Shown: piece after piece, positions 15,539 to 24,321 of the stretch
Layout: each line of letters begins with the position of its first letter
Numbering within the stretch: the first letter of the stretch is position 1
Assembly: GCA_015501075.1 (NCBI GenBank)
Contig: JADNYJ010000194.1
Location: forward strand, 1 to 64,000
Length of the DNA stretch: 64,000 bases
From: Gymnopilus junonius
Taxonomy: Eukaryota > Basidiomycota > Agaricomycetes > Agaricales > Galerinaceae
Direction of reading: 5' to 3'
Made by a program: the position numbers and the translations under genes
Notes under the pieces: model-generated
The model's database searches: none
Seen by the model: only the letters and a program-made list of their open reading frames with translations
Told to the model about the DNA's origin: nothing

Positions 15539-17587
15539 TTACACCTTTGCGAACCATACCTCGGCGCTTTCCTTCCCAACCCCAACAGGCGAGCGGGCAT
15601 CCAAACCTTCCATGCCCCAAAATCCACCCTTAAACGCCAGACCTTCCTCTTCTCCACGTACCCACTCCACCTCAAAATGCTCATCCAACTCTACAAGGAT
15701 ATCACCCTTCGACACTGGCCCACCTTTTCCATCACCATGCGAATATCCTTCCTTCTCTCGGACATCCGCATTTGAAAATATCGTGGTGACGTTGAATAGG
15801 TTCCCGTCGAAGTGCGCTAGACGGAGATGACTGGTAAAGAAGCGTTTCCACGGAATAATGTACGTCGGAGTTGAGAGGTCCGAAACAGAGAGGATGCGTT
15901 GGACGGCATAAGATGAAAGGAAGTTCAAGCATTGGAGAGATTGGGCGTATGTCGAGTCCATGTAGGAATGAACACTGGCAGGAACGAGACAGGGCTGAAG
16001 CGTCCCATAAGTTGGATGATGGAACGTGTTCTCAGCTAGAGAGGTATAAGGAGCACTTGGAAACTCTGGTTTATTGGGTCGAGGTGTCAGCTTCTGAGCC
16101 TTTTCAACGTAGTCGTTCCACTGCTTTTCGAACCGGTCATTCCAGTCTAGCTCTTTGAGTCCTAGAAGCTCATCGGCTATGCGGAATTTGACAGCTTCTA
16201 TGATGAAACCACCACCTTTAGCGTCGTTTGAGAGAGTGATGATTCCAAGATTGTCATTTGGGAAGCGAGCCACTTGGGTCTTGTAGCCTGGATTGTTTCC
16301 TCCGTGTTCTATGATATCGTGCGCTTGGTATGAATATCGCCATTGGCCGGCACCATAGACCTTAGGGCTCTGTTCGAAGTTGAAAAGGAATCAGAATCCT
16401 TGAAGTGGAAGCTTGGAAGCAGAATGCAGGCGTACCAGTTCCGGGAATTCAGGTTTGCCATGCGACACTGAACGCCCATGGGCAACGTGCTCGACAATTT
16501 CTGAGGGTATTATCGTCTCATTGGTATACGGATGGCGCCCATTGTTAAGGAGCATCGACACCCAAGTAGCCTAACGACAGAACAGGGTTAATTTTGGCTA
16601 GATCAAATCTTCCTACGACATACCAAATCACGAGCAGAGGTGAGTACGCCTCCTGCACCGGCCCATATTTTTTCTTCTCCAGGACGTTGAAAGTATGGGA
16701 CGGTCGCGACACGGGTGCCGTTCTTTCCCTGAGTGATGTCTTGCGCATCCCACTGAAAACCATCAGCGAGAGTTCCGCGTGCTTCTGCCTCGGCCACGGA
16801 GAACGTCGACGCAGACATGTTGAGTGGCCCAAAGATGTGTTGAACAATATATGATTCATAACTTTGATTGAGAAGGACTTGTGGTAAGTAGGAAAGTGTT
16901 TCATACATCAGATTATTGTACTGGAACGTTTCTCGAAACTCAGCAGACGGCTTGAGGTACCGCAATTTTGATATCTGCAGCAGGATGGATATTGAGCGAC
17001 ATTTTTGAGGTAAGAAGAGAAGGACTTGCCATCTCACCAACGCCTCCTTCGCGCAAAACACCAGAGAAATCGTGCCTAGGCATGCCAGTTCGGTGAGAGA
17101 CCATATCTTGCAGCGTCACTGCTCGATCCATGTCCTCGTCCATTAAGCCCCACTCCGGAATCAGGTCGCGGATTTTTGTCGACCATTTAATCTCATTTCC
17201 CCGTTCTTCTGCCAGCGTCTTGTTGGAAATAAGAAGGCCGACAGAGAAAGCTAGGACAAGCTTGCTATTTGACGCGATTGCGAACAAGGAGTCCGGGGTC
17301 ACCGGCGAACCATCGGCTTTGGCAACACCGTAAGCTCCAAATTCGTGGTGCCAACCAGTACGTGAATTCTCGTCTTTTCGAACGACTGCTACTGATATAC
17401 CGCTTGAGTTCCACTTGGTAAGAAGTGTTTGGATATACTGTTCCGTTCTTTCCGATATCAGAGGTTTTTTCGCAAGCGGATAATGAGTCTGGGATTCCGT
17501 CCCTGACATAAAGGGGACTTGCAGGCAATAAGAGCCCTGAATAGCGACAAGACCAACGATGAGGCCCGTATAGACCATCAACTTCAT
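15539..17587 (-). CDS. secreted serine beta-lactamase/esterase-like protein
   Basis: Four exons (17587-17030, 16974-16624, 16570-16436, 16369-15539) give a 624-residue protein without a stop. It starts with a signal peptide-like MKLMVYTGLIVGLVAIQGSYC. The fold signatures of the class C beta-lactamase/D-Ala carboxypeptidase family are present: SNSK as the S-x-x-K nucleophile motif in the segment FAIASNSKLVLAF, YNN as the Y-x-N motif in FQYNNLMYETLSYL, and HGG in IEHGGNNPGYKTQV. In fungi this family is mostly esterases or amidases rather than antibiotic resistance enzymes. The C-terminal 200 residues past HGG form an extra domain common in fungal members. The first intron must use a GC donor (GCAAGT at 17024-17029) to keep frame. 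Substrate is unknown. Confidence 0.88.
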
Positions 17588-17743
17588 ACCGTTGACGTGT
17601 CCCTTGACTTCGAAAGAGGGTGGAGGTGTGATGGAAAGCGCGTCGATGATAAGGTAGGGGCCACGCAGATCCGGCTAGCTTATGTAATACCATTATATAA
17701 GCGCCAAGAGCGGCAAAATCTTGCCTTCAAGAAAAAAAAATAG

Positions 17744-17749
17744 ATATTG
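17744..17749 (+). repeat. target-site duplication ATATTG, left copy
   Basis: ATATTG directly precedes the inverted repeat starting CCAAGGGG. The same six bases follow the right inverted repeat at 23632-23637. Extending to seven or eight bases breaks the match, so the duplication is six bases. Confidence 0.8.
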
Positions 17750-17788
17750 CCAAGGGGTATGCAAAAAATTTTCCCATGACATGACCTT
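17750..17788 (+). repeat. left terminal inverted repeat, 39 bp
   Basis: It starts CCAAGGGGTATGC and ends CATGACATGACCTT. Compared with the reverse complement of 23593-23631 it matches at about 30 of 39 positions without gaps, with 12 of the first 13 identical. Confidence 0.8.
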
Positions 17789-17898
17789 CTTTTTTTCACT
17801 TAAGGGCTCTCGGACCACCCCCCCCCTCCCCCGACCATTAAATTTCGATTAAATATGATTAAATTGTATAATTTTATTGAAGTAGGAACACCCAGAAT

Positions 17899-20800
17899 CT
17901 ATTCTGCTCCTCGCCGTCGCTTCCGTGGACCAACTACCTTGAACCCTGCATTTTTTCGGCATTCATTATCACAAAACCAGGCTTGGTCTGGCTTCTTAAT
18001 CAGGCCTCGACAAGATAAATGATACTGAAGTCATGAAAATCATCAGAATGCAAATAATGAAGTAGCAGAGTTTAAATGTCGTACCATTAAATAGCACCCT
18101 GGGCAATCACAGCACAGTAGTTCTGACTCATTAATGGGACTCTCACATCCAGGGTCATTACATGTAGCCTCAGAGTTTTCTGCTGCATTGTACTCTGTAT
18201 CGAAGGTGGTTGGGCGTCTACGCTTCCGACAAGGTGGTAAATCGTCAGTTGGTGGCTCGAGCTGTGATGGTACAGCTGGCAGCGCATGCAAATCATCGTT
18301 GGCTAGGACATCTGATTCAAAATACATTTCATACTGATAAATATTGGATAAATATCAAACATACCTGGTTCTCTGTCCTCCTCATTTTCTGAAGCAGTAC
18401 TTTCCTCTGAATCCTCATCCAACTCATCACCTGCATCATCTTCAACACTTGGTTCTGCATCATTCAGGAGACCCTCGTTGTCACCTGGTGTTGAGGACAG
18501 TCTGGTACACAGAGTAAGCTATTAGAATCGAAACTGAGGAGAAAACAAAACTTTACTGAAGCGCCGCTCGAGAGCTATGGATAGCAGAAATAGCCAAGGC
18601 TTTAGTTTTGTTATTTTGCTTCTTCGAAACTCGGGTCTTCATCAGGTAAGCGCGCTTCATTAATATGAATTCATCGCCATGAAGTTTGTAGAACGATTCA
18701 TATAGTTGGACAGTGGCGGTGGGATGGTTGTCGTTAATGTGAGCCTTGAGATTGTATTTCCAAACCACTTTTGGACAAATCGGGCATTTAAGCAGATGGT
18801 TCGTGCATGGTTGGTTCTTGGTAAAAGACTGCGCAGTCTTGAGGCTAACCTTTCGATGACTAGGGCATGTTGACTTTTGCATATCAATGGAAAATATTTG
18901 ACCATGTCGTGTAAGGAAGATCTCGCACTGAGAATTAAGGCAAAAACCACAAGGACTCATGCGTCCTTGCGACCTTGGGTCATGGAGAATATGGCCGCCC
19001 ATATGTTTGAGAAGATCTGGGCCGGAAAGCGCCTCAAGTGAGAGGCCAGGGCAAAGGAAGCATGTAGGCGAGTCCTCTTCATACAATTGAAGAGCATCAA
19101 CGGCATCTGCTTGGCAAGCGAAGCATGCTTCTCCTGGTGAATAAAACATGTAAGAATTATGGAACTTTGGATCGACAATGCTAATACATACCTAACGATG
19201 ACCTATATGGGAAAGAATCACTTACCGCCACAGATGGGAGGTGGTGGATACTGTCTTTGACCCTCTCATAAAGGATCACCAATGTGCCACAAAGATCTGA
19301 TGTCTCGAAAATGTATGTATCTTCCCAGTATTATGTCCGCGAGATGCTGGCTGGACATCTGGATCAATCAATTCAACCCATTGACCCTCAATATCCTGAA
19401 AGGCTGAATGCGCTTCAAAATTCCCATTCCATTCCCAATCTGGAGTACCCTGCTCAGGCCTTTGATCATGAATCAAACTCAACTTCATGATTTGACCATG
19501 GATGCGAACATTGGGTTCCCCAAGGAGGTTGGAAGGGAGAGACTGAACATCGGCAGCATCGTGACGGATACCCAGCACCTGAAAGGCAGCAAGAAAGAGT
19601 TTGTTGTTGCAATGCACAACAGTCAGGGCTGGATCAAGCACACACAACACATTCTCGTCCTCAGAGGTTGGAAGAGGAGGAGGTAACAACAGCTCGGCAC
19701 TTGACTTGGACTCGTTATACTGTGAGTAGCCACGAACACACTTCAGACAGTCTTTAGAATTCGCAACAGTGAGTGGGTTGGAGTAAAGACGAAGGACACT
19801 GGCTTTGTGAACCTTCTTTGATGTGGTGGGATCAATTGATATCCATGCACTGGGTGGCACATTCTGATTCACTGATGCAGATTTTTGGGCTTCGGAGAGC
19901 TCAGCAGTTCCCGCTATATCATCGACATCCAAATCTTCATTGTCATTAGGTGTCTCCCCATCAGTACCCTCAGCCTCGGCTATAGGAGCATCATCCTGTT
20001 CCTCTTCTGTCTCCTCGCGCTCACCAGCATGTCGGCCGTCAACCAGTACAACCTTTCCCTCGCCAAATGGACACATAATATCATATCCACCAGCTTTCCT
20101 CATGTCATCAAAGGGGGATGGGTATTTCACCTCGGCAAGCTCAGCCTCGGCAAGTCGACAACCTGATGACCACGACCCCAAAAGGACTACATTGCTGACT
20201 TTGACATCGCCCTTCCAAGAGCGAGGATTGATGTGGTCATATTTGCTTGAAATATCGCTTGAGCTTAAATCGCTAGGCAGACGTTGAAGATTAAGGCGGC
20301 GAGCTTGACCACCCCACTCTGGATGCAGTTCGAGAATCTTGACGCATTGGACAGCACTGTCAATGCAGTTGGCGAGCTGGAGTTGATCGGCATTTGTATC
20401 ATTGCCGACCATGGTGCGTACTTTACCGAAAACCTTTTCCAGGCCATCAGTTCTGAGTAAAATGATCCAGAACGACCCTTCTGGGTCATCTATCTGAGTC
20501 TTCGCAACACAAAAATGTACATTCTTGATCATAGACATGACATCAAAGAACGTCTGGACAGGAATAAAGTCGCCCTTGTCTTTGTGGTACATAGCAAGAA
20601 TTAAATGTGCCGCCGCACTGAGATGAACAAGCTGGTCATGAAGGGAAAGTTCGACGTCCAGATAGGCACTTAAAAGATGATGGTAGATGCGCCCGAGAAG
20701 GTGCAGGACTCGACGTGTGGCTTGGATCATTGGACTGTCTGTCGATGATGCAGGAGGCAACAGTGAAATTGAATGGAGAAGTTTGATCATGAGAACGACG

Positions 20801-23311
20801 TCTTGCTTGTCATTGGGTGCAAGAAGGGCATCGGCGGTGGATTCAGGCATCCCACATGCGACTAAGTGAAATTTGAGGGTCGACATACTGATTGGAATGC
20901 CATTAAGAGTCATTCCTTTAAGCATCCGGAGAAGCGTATTATGGAACCGCTTTAGGACATGTTTCCAGTCGAAGTCACAAGTCAATTCATCATTGCTGCA
21001 TTTGAGATTAAAAAATGGCAAAGACGAAAGGAGGTGATGAAGCTTGCTCATAGGAGAGGGGGTCGAGGTGAGAGTAATGGCAATGAGTGCACGACAGCGG
21101 CGAGAATCTCCGTCAGAGGTGATACAATAAAGACGGCAGTCTTGAGCCTGTTGACTTGATATCAATGCCTCGCTGGCCTGGTGGAGGAGCCGCTCCTGAT
21201 CCTGGACAGTTTCGCACTTGCAACTACCTGATATTGCAAAAGGCCTTGTTGTATAATCATTCGGGTCATCGGAGAGAATGCTTGCTCCGATGACCATTGC
21301 CTATAAAAGAGCCATGAATACAGGAACAGATTAAATCGATATAGTAACATGCCTCAGTAGCAAAATGAACTAAACCTGTCTTCAAGCACTCGAGGATAGC
21401 GTCAGCTTGAACAATCGATTGAAATTCCAGGGCCAATGAACAGGAGGCGGCATGTTCTCGACAGACACCAAGGATGTGATTAGAGTGCGGGTCCCATCGA
21501 AGTCTGTCCTGAATCTTCAGCTTGTCAACCTCCATCATCATGCCTCGAATCCGCCTAGGTGTGACCACCACATCTGGACCATTGGCATGAGGGGGATAGC
21601 AGGTGGCGAGGTTCAAGCTAAGCTCAGGGAGAGTTGGAAAACCAGATGAGGCATGAATGGGCGAGGTTATAATGTGGCGTTTAGTAGCATCGATTGATGG
21701 GGTTCCTAATGACCGGTGAGCGATATCTGCAGCAGCACGTCCACCCAATTTGTAAATGAGAAATGCACGCTCAAAGTCTGCAGCTTCATAACCTCGGGGG
21801 CTGTAAGCATGACAAGTGGCCTTGTCGATCTTCTCCAGCATGGTGAAAACACTGGAACCCGCGCGGTGTTGAGCTGCCATGAGACTCCGAATTCGGGGGA
21901 TGTCTTCACGTCCTATGGCCATGGAGAGCCTTTTCCAGGCTGAAAGATGCCGATTGCGTACCCTAATTTTTCGAGCATCATTGAGAGCATAAAGTTTGAG
22001 TCGAACATTTTCATCGGTCTTCTTTCGGAGTGCCTGCCACATCTGCCTTGGGCTGAGAAATCCCCAGGGCATGCTATTGTGGGCGTTGTCGAGCTCGGAA
22101 CGATGACAGATACCCATGATGATGTTGTGGTCATTGAGCATTGAACATGACATGCATGGCTGGGGGGTCTTCTCTTTACCCTTCTTCGACAATTTGGTGA
22201 AACCAGAACAAGTTGTTGAATAAAGAAAAAAGTGATCGCCTTCAGTCTTCAAATTCCATGGGAGGGTTTTCTTAGCGTGAATCTGGAAGGAGTATTCATC
22301 AAATGCTGACTTCTCGTTTCGAAATTTGAGATGAAAGCCTGGGCATGGCTTTGATACTGGAGTCGGCATTGGAAACAGTGTCTTCTCAACTGGCTTGTCA
22401 AGAATAGCAGGAGCACCCAGGGGTGCGACAGTAAAGGTTCCTCCCCTTGAATGAAGATAAGAAGATTTAGCAAAGTCGATGACGAAATTAGCCACAACTT
22501 ACAAGGGAGTCACTGCCTCTATGAGGCAGTTAATCTTGCCTTCGAGAAGGGCCTCATCAACCATCAATTCCGACACAAGAACCCTCAGCCATCTGCATAG
22601 CCCATCCATCCCAAGCGGTCCACGATGAATGATCTTCGTGATTTCTTCAACTGTAATGCCAAAGCCAATGACTTGATTGAGCGCACGATCGGCCATCTCC
22701 CAGGCATTGTCGCCTTGAGGGAGTTCGTCCACCGGATTGCCAGAGAAATGGGCCAGAGTATCAGAAGACGTTGCCTCGAGAACAGATCCAGGTAGTGATG
22801 CCGCGACTTGCTCAAGTTTATCCAACAGGCTGGTGGAAGGCGGCGAGTCAACTATTGGGGCGGACGGACTTGGAGGATTCCAGGCATTGACATCGAAAGC
22901 ATCGGGGATCGGTGTGCTGACAGGGGGAGGAAAGGATGTGGTAGAAGATGGAGTCGGCATGGAAGGGAGAGAAAAAGAGGCTGACGAAGAGGCTTTTGCC
23001 GCGGAAGACTTCGACACCGCAGGAGCGGCTTTCTCAACTGCCTTCGAGAACCAAGCCATAATTCCCTTCCTTTGAGAAGAAACATTGGCCGCTCTTTCTT
23101 TTTCTTTATGTGCTGTGCTTCCTAAGTGAGCATTCCAGTTGGCCTCTCCTCCGAAGCCAATCTTCACATTGATTTTGCAAACATCGCAGTAATGCGTACT
23201 TGCTGCAGTGAACTCAGGTTGCTTCTAAATATAATGAAATGAATGCGTCAAAGCTGACTCAAAGGTGTCAAAGTGTCGAGAATGTACCTTAGGTGCCTTC
23301 TTCTTTCCCAT
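17899..23311 (-). CDS. large zinc-finger/PHD protein, probable transposase
   Basis: Eight exons can be followed. The start is MGKKKAPK (23311-23288), spliced to KQPEFTA with a U1-like C2H2 finger (CDVC...NWNAHLGSTAHK). A Ser/Pro-rich linker follows, then a large central region (22495-19276) with SDGDSRRCRALI, CDFDWKHVLKRFHNTLL, NDKQDVVLMIKLL and TDGLEKVFGKVRTMVGND. Last come C-rich zinc fingers (CFACQ, CFLCPG, CGFC, CPICPK; 18553-19140), an acidic segment and a C-terminal PHD finger (CNDPGCES, CCDCPGCYLM, WFCDNEC) ending at TAG 17899. The aspartate plus H-x-x-K-x-x-x-N pattern recalls the RNase H core of P-element/THAP9 transposases, but that is inference. Introns at 23225-23287, about 22447-22500 and about 18500-18557 are canonical; one near 21303-21350 would use a GC donor. 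Around 19277-19281 one base is missing: TTGGTGATC should read TGGGTGATC to pass from HW into VILYERVKD. This copy may therefore be broken. Confidence 0.75.
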
Positions 23312-23592
23312 CAGTGTCAATAGGCCCACCTTGGGGAGGCGGGAGCAAGTCTTCGCAAGGAAATTTTTCGGTTGGTTACGGCCTCAAACCCGAAAGTGTG
23401 CACATTCTTGTGACGATGATGTCATTGAATCATCCAGGTGCGCAAATATGGGCCATCGCATACAACAAAGCCAAGAAATTGTTGAAAACAGCTTTTTCAT
23501 ATCAATACAAGCTTCAAAACCAATAAAAATCATTAAATACTTGAAGGAAAAAAAAATTCAGTTAAGGCCCTCTGACCCCGACCCTCCCCCCC

Positions 23593-23631
23593 AAGGTCAT
23601 ATCACTCGGCAATTTCCGGCATACCTCTTGG
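23593..23631 (-). repeat. right terminal inverted repeat, 39 bp
   Basis: Read on the minus strand it starts CCAAGAGGTATGC and ends GTGATATGACCTT, pairing with 17750-17788. Confidence 0.8.
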
Positions 23632-23637
23632 ATATTG
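23632..23637 (+). repeat. target-site duplication ATATTG, right copy
   Basis: Matches 17744-17749 exactly and abuts the end of the right inverted repeat. Confidence 0.8.
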
Positions 23638-24321
23638 CATAAATTTCCTGACCAAGATATCGAGCTTTATGAGAAGATTTAATTTGATTACTGCATCAGG
23701 GATTTAAGTTTTACATTCAATAAGCTCAGAAACGTTGCTGCCAACACTCAGCCATAGTTGGTCAATGTTCGGCTACTTTAGGTTGGAAGCAAACCTTGCC
23801 GCTCATGCCGACTTACCATATATAGACAGTCACGTGATTATTTAAACCCCGCTCATGGCAAAAATCTTGCTGGTCGAAAATCGAAAACAGCGCAGAACAC
23901 CCCGAAAGGCACGAAAAAGCACTCAGAAAAAATTTACCCATTTTTTTCAAAAGTGGTTAATAACTTGCCTATACTTGACTCAAAACCAAATCTGCTTTCA
24001 ACAAGTTGTACCATACATCAAACCCTTCAATTCTATGGTCTTAAAATTGTGGGAAACTTTGCCATCGCCGTGGAATACTGAGCTCGTTGCTGGATTACGT
24101 AACACGTGCCGGATCTGCGTGGCCCCTACCTTAGCCAAAAATCGGCAACCAATGACCAAGCCGCCAAAATGATCGGATTGAAGATATTATCTTATCTTAT
24201 CTCAAAATCCTTCCCAAATTCCAACGATTCAAATTACAGTTCAATCTTTACTGTGATGTAAAAGTACAATTTCAAAGTGGATCACTAGTGTAGTTCCGAG
24301 TTCAAGAAAACTTGAAGAAAT
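23638..24321. other. intergenic; nothing recognised
   Basis: A 105-codon plus-strand open frame (23855-24172) is basic and low in complexity at its start and has no recognised domain or intron support. It is treated as chance. Confidence 0.4.

Follow-up and report, generated by a model that had tools for sequence, protein, structure and literature searches.

We analyzed a 64,000-base-pair (bp) stretch of the genome of the mushroom Gymnopilus junonius (contig JADNYJ010000194.1, positions 1 to 64,000; hereafter, the window) and found that a DNA transposon of 5,880 bp splits an older repeat at positions 17751–23630 and carries a single large transposase gene on the minus strand. The element very probably belongs to the P superfamily, broadly defined, as a branch that has to date been seen in mushrooms alone. 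The borders and ends are as follows.

17650–24133 (no strand): older repeat split by the transposon; its ends read TAAGGTAGGGGCCACGCAGATCC, and it measures about 600 bp with the insert removed
17743–17750 (no strand): left target site duplication GATATTGC, 8 bp, single in two uninterrupted host-repeat copies
17751–23630 (no strand): transposon, 5,880 bp, with borders read base by base and by comparison with a full-length copy on C50
17751–17762 (plus): left terminal inverted repeat CAAGGGGTATGC
17778–17788 (plus): subterminal motif GACATGACCTT at end bases 28–38, located by eye, a candidate transposase binding site
23593–23603 (minus): subterminal motif GATATGACCTT at end bases 28–38
23619–23630 (minus): right terminal inverted repeat CAAGAGGTATGC
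23631–23638 (no strand): right target site duplication GATATTGC, 8 bp, on the same basis as the left one

Read base by base, the borders run GATATTGC / CAAGGGGTATGC ... GCATACCTCTTG / GATATTGC, with an exact 8-bp duplication. The two ends agree at 11 of their first 12 bases and, without gaps, at 28 of 39 positions, which bears out the inverted repeats that an earlier note on this DNA had described at both borders; none of 20,000 random 12-base pairs reached 11/12 identity. The same note had given a unit of 5,882 bp and a 6-bp duplication, ATATTG. Both figures are replaced by those above: the repeat had appeared as 6 bp because one base on each side, the final C on the left and the initial G on the right, had been counted with the element ends.

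We then consider the assembly of G. junonius (58 megabases, 898 contigs), which was scanned for ends and copies. The 12-base end CAAGRGGTATGC occurred 31 times (17 forward, 14 reverse), versus five times (3 and 2) for the reversed control. Twenty of the 31 matches paired up into ten both-ended elements: large ones in the window (5,880 bp), on C50 (5,883 bp) and on C24 (5,774 bp); an internally deleted one of 4,131 bp on C131; shorter ones on C35 (781 bp) and C278 (782 bp); and miniature ones of 239–242 bp on C119, C235, C481 and C564. Identical 8-bp flanks (8/8) were found in nine of these ten. The remaining 11 matches were single ends, among which those on C123 and C680 have their flanks in common with C50, and that on C136 with C35; C204 carries a fifth miniature, and C179 lies close to a contig end; those on C46, C82, C223, C224, C511 and C556 continue in letters unlike the family (by eye) and may be chance matches. 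For the family as a whole, chance ends were ruled out by the genome-wide end counts and by the paired elements with duplications. The five miniature copies are 98–100% identical, which suggests recent movement.

Sites without the element were also present. Two other copies of the host repeat that is interrupted in the window, on C756 and C650, run uninterrupted through AAATAGATATTGCATAAATTT with a single GATATTGC. Similarly, C278, with its 782-bp element, matches C401 at 579 of 580 bases over the joined flanks, with one ATATCATC, and the joined flanks of C564 (242-bp element), which lies inside another repeat, match at least 39 places over the junction, one of which was aligned in full (286/292, ungapped). 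The related site of C24, on C880, does not count as clean, its alignment being gapped where the flanks meet. These results, from a search in which 40 of 107 candidates were scored and sites C35, C50, C119, C131, C235 and C481 were left unjudged, show insertion with an 8-bp duplication. Together with the repeated copies, their shared ends and exact duplications, they establish the DNA transposon that the earlier note had proposed.

Three side observations concern the host sequence. The TAAGGTAGGGGCCACGCAGATCC repeat at 17650–24133 has no obvious duplication around it here. The flank of C564 is a high-copy repeat (at least 39 places matched over the junction) hit by a miniature element. In addition, both haplotypes are apparently present in parts of the assembly (C278/C401, C50/C123/C680 and C35/C136), C278 and C401 differing by the 782-bp element.

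A protein search of the genome returned further, more distant copies, including those on C138, C10 and C209 (27–40% identity by segment). Their ends were searched for with no motif given, as an 11-base inverted repeat with at most two mismatches adjoining at least 7 of 8 duplication bases, and exactly one solution was found for each, in which both the repeat and the 8-bp duplication (GTGTGGCC, CTTCAGCT and CCATCAAC, respectively) were perfect. Six shuffles of the C138 flanks, at one mismatch or fewer, gave zero solutions. The ends of all three start CAAGGGGG, and a CAAG start was found in 29 of 29 ends, 23 of which were chosen by motif and six (C138, C10, C209) not. Overall, exact 8-bp duplications flank 12 of the 14 both-ended elements. 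The copy on C667 (up to 64% identity on longer segments) has CAAGGGGTATGT at both ends, and that on C112 (up to 68% identity) has one end only within the stretch examined. Ends of the CAAGGGGTATG(C/T) type have common letters near RACAYRACCTT at bases 28–38 (by eye); only the first part of this subterminal motif occurs in C24, and it is absent from the deleted C131 end and from C138, C10 and C209.

As a separate observation, the C112 and C667 copies are 96% identical and their flanks look exchanged, the left flank of C112, AATACTTG, being equal to the right flank of C667. Recombination or an assembly error may lie behind this; an empty site joining the C112 left and C667 right flanks was searched for, and none was found.

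The transposase gene spans the unit on the minus strand in eight exons.

23288–23311 (minus): exon 1, start codon at 23309–23311
22503–23224 (minus): exon 2, U1-like C2H2 finger at about 23108–23188 (far end by hand count)
21353–22445 (minus): exon 3, with the proposed first catalytic Asp (residue 556) at 21524–21526; the next intron is apparently GC-AG
19192–21300 (minus): exon 4, with the second catalytic Asp proposed at 21112–21114 (676) and the catalytic Glu at 20437–20439 (901)
20968–20970 (minus): Asp of the DxxH motif (724), in exon 4
18557–19133 (minus): exon 5, Cys/His-rich region
18365–18501 (minus): exon 6, acidic linker
18085–18311 (minus): exon 7, ending in the first half of the PHD finger
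17899–18024 (minus): exon 8, rest of the PHD finger, then a basic tail and the stop (end counted by eye)

The single large gene of the earlier note was recovered on this strand, at about 1,670 codons (a hand sum, with the last exon by eye) in eight exons rather than its roughly 1,500 codons. Several features that it had listed were located in the protein: a C2H2 motif near the start, a C4HC3 PHD-like motif at the end and, within the core, SDGDSRR and DFDWKHVLKRFHN. The window copy keeps all four acidic residues proposed for the active site, but it has one single-base frameshift in exon 4, near 19.33 kilobases (kb), and is therefore not intact. The C50 copy, 97.7% identical to it, is interrupted by a stop in its core and by additional breaks. 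Between the two there are 124 substitutions, 119 of them transitions and 101 of these in CpG, whereas CpG accounts for 20% of C and G; the pattern of decay fits loss of methylated CpG. With regard to the gene model itself, the intron at 21301–21352, before exon 4, is apparently of the rare GC-AG type. A beta-lactamase-related reading frame (16940–17674, minus) adjoins the host repeat and is joined to the transposase in the public model P0001 (PF00144, expect value (E) 2.8e-10).

In protein databases, the transposase had 116 matches, and a profile search returned 333, of which the best 120 supplied the names considered here (some entries are nameless). Among the matches listed, the relatives' own names were only "hypothetical", "uncharacterized" or "Zinc finger PHD-type", and one public model was named after its fused beta-lactamase neighbour; the absence of a functional name among these matches is consistent with the earlier note, which knew such proteins only as hypothetical ones in mushrooms. 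The genus names among the named matches (the best 120 of 333, and the 116) are ones that we take to be Agaricomycetes. In Pfam, residues 1–1,287 of the window protein had zero matches at E up to 1, and the exon 5 piece had two weak C2H2-type matches below the cut-off. When 23 relatives were compared with Pfam (E up to 0.1), PF21787 (TNP-like_RNaseH_N) was matched by 7 of the 23 (best E 0.0014), PF21789 by one and a PHD model by four.

The best fold match of the predicted cores was the P element transposase (6p5a), with template modelling scores (TM-scores) of 0.53–0.62 when normalized by target length; the similarity covers most of the solved chain and lies approximately 8–9 Z units above that to Transib. 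An insertion domain of the P type is indicated by the topology of the P0086 model and by its alignment over residues 156–565 of the 6p5a chain. The enzyme is thus probably folded like the Drosophila P element transposase, and the models of two relatives agree with the RNase H-like core of P/THAP9 type suggested in the earlier note.

The catalytic residues of the Drosophila enzyme are D230, D303 and E531, and D339 belongs to a [C/D](2)H motif bordering the insertion domain (PMC8230255). From sequence order and model strands, we take the Asp of an xDE(I/L)K-type strand, the SDG Asp, the TDxLE Glu and the DxxH Asp as the putative counterparts. The DxxH Asp (DFDWKH) was also considered as the second catalytic residue and was dropped; since D339 is tied to the [C/D](2)H motif, the second residue was taken to be the SDG Asp. 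Five marked residues are all kept in 66 of the 77 alignment rows, and the spacing between the second Asp and the Glu has a median of 225 (68 rows). The Asp-Asp-Glu (DDE) residues, which the earlier note had proposed to look for in the core, are therefore conserved across the relatives' alignment.

A predicted RNase H-like DDE core and insertion domain in relatives, an 8-bp duplication and short ends starting with CA, all features of the broadly defined P superfamily, were found. Because the 8-bp duplication, the CA...TG ends, the fold and the DDE order agree with P, it is more probable that the element represents a fungal branch, apparently without a name, of an established superfamily than that it defines the new DNA transposon group that the earlier note had envisaged, and the 6-bp duplication that had seemed to set it apart from P elements is in fact 8 bp, as in P. 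The transposase carries a U1-like C2H2 finger towards its N terminus, a Cys/His-rich region further on and a PHD finger at its C terminus; as it gave no THAP match, we did not place the element with the animal P/THAP9 elements. The group is real, apparently unnamed, and widens the P superfamily in mushrooms by a new combination of domains.

Several observations weigh against this assignment or against parts of its evidence. Within the window alone, at one mismatch, the end had two matches versus a shuffle mean of 0.50, two or more occurred in 8 of 100 shuffles, and the terminal pair was absent from the repeat finder output; this evidence is not compelling, and the matter was decided by the genome counts. 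Two of the both-ended elements lack an exact duplication, namely C24 (3/8 in register, or 7–8 bp after a one-base shift) and C667 (whose flanks differ, 2/8), and excision was not observed. The folds were predicted for two relatives and not for the spliced window protein, and the TM-scores to P are modest. The spacing between the first and second Asp (median 118, range 76–142) is longer than the 73 of Drosophila or the 87 of zebrafish, and the first of the catalytic positions is occupied by Asn in P0015. At the sequence level, P is supported weakly: of the 23 relatives, 7 match PF21787 (best E 0.0014) and one PF21789 at E up to 0.1; six proteins scanned singly gave three PF21787 matches and one PF21789 match, all below the Pfam cut-off, with neither in two proteins; and the window protein matches neither family. 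Profile searches of solved-structure sequences (E up to 10) did not reach the P transposase, one returning a PHD finger and the other one weak unrelated match. No THAP match was obtained for the window protein (E up to 1), and none was listed for the 23 relatives (E up to 0.1).

Part of this evidence would also suit a separate superfamily, sister to P and deserving its own name, in which the fold and the 8-bp duplication reflect distant common descent, as RAG and Transib share parts of the fold. No Pfam P-transposase match rises above the cut-off, no THAP domain is matched, the spacing between the first two Asp is longer, the CAAGGGG ends are unlike those of the zebrafish element, and only mushrooms appear among the named matches listed. 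However, the structural likeness to P extends over most of the solved chain, well above Transib, and the PF21787 and PF21789 matches, weak as they are, recur; we consider a separate superfamily rather unlikely. A KDZ (Zisupton-type) transposon, a group that has 8-bp duplications and is common in mushrooms (PMC12730594), is very improbable, as no KDZ family is among the Pfam matches listed for the 23 relatives (E up to 0.1) and the best fold is that of P. A hAT transposon would likewise have 8-bp duplications, with ends starting CA, and is slightly more improbable still; on the same Pfam matches and best fold, hAT and KDZ were set aside as first choices. That the 5.9-kb unit is merely a host gene between chance inverted repeats, as its "hypothetical" public gene models and the non-significant end motif in the window alone might suggest, is refuted by the repeated copies with ends, duplications and empty sites, and its probability is negligible.

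For a P superfamily element, the following course of transposition can be proposed. The transposase would pair two CAAGGGG ends, perhaps with the aid of the subterminal motif, and its RNase H-like active site would cut the element out. Joining to the target DNA would occur with an 8-bp stagger, which repair would turn into the duplication. The short elements would have been moved in trans, and the window copy would be a decayed former autonomous copy.

In other proteins, the PHD finger is often a histone reader. The earlier note had suggested chromatin-directed targeting by this finger, which is a tentative proposal. On a far-reaching and somewhat unlikely reading, the group would be a P-type lineage present throughout mushrooms, in which the PHD finger of the transposase reads histones and steers integration, a single-protein parallel to RAG1 with the PHD finger of RAG2; if true, the P superfamily would be present in fungi with chromatin-reading target choice. 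More generally, the assignment to P would extend P-type elements to a fungal lineage without a THAP domain and would tie many unnamed mushroom proteins now called "hypothetical" or "zinc finger PHD-type" (the 116 and 333 matches) to transposons. It would also offer a natural test case for insertion guided by a transposase's own PHD finger. At present, gene catalogues list such transposases among the host genes.

We found no account of this transposon family in the literature covered, Repbase and subscription papers being outside that coverage. In passages of PMC6416283, PMC12411881 and PMC5753468, no P element of fungi is mentioned. A study of TET/JBP-carrying transposons in fungi has described KDZ, Plavaka and others (PMC12730594), and the term "P element" is absent from its main text.

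KDZ and Plavaka resemble the present group in being fungal transposons, and Zisupton duplications are also 8 bp, but no KDZ match was listed for our 23 relatives, and Plavaka elements have 2–3-bp duplications and belong to a CACTA-related group (PMC12730594). The zebrafish Pdre2/THAP9 element shares 8-bp duplications, short CA ends (13 bp there), subterminal repeats and internally deleted copies (PMC10983969, PMC7776569). It differs in having a THAP domain, which is restricted to animals (PMC7776569), and the subterminal motif here lies at end bases 28–38 and is not a distant repeat. The Drosophila P element (PDB 6p5a, 6pe2) provides the best-matching fold, including the insertion domain, with the same DDE order and a near-equal spacing between the second Asp and the Glu, and it shares 8-bp duplications, inverted ends and internally deleted copies. 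Conversely, it is 2.9 kb long with 31-bp perfect repeats, whereas the element here is 5.9 kb with about 1,670 codons and short ends, and has a U1-like C2H2 finger, a Cys/His-rich region and a PHD finger with no THAP domain matched. RAG1/RAG2 and Transib give the second-best fold, and RAG2 places a PHD finger beside a DDE recombinase. Their fold score, however, is about half that of P, the duplications of the RAG/Transib group are 2–5 bp (PMC12730594), and the PHD finger here is carried on the transposase itself.
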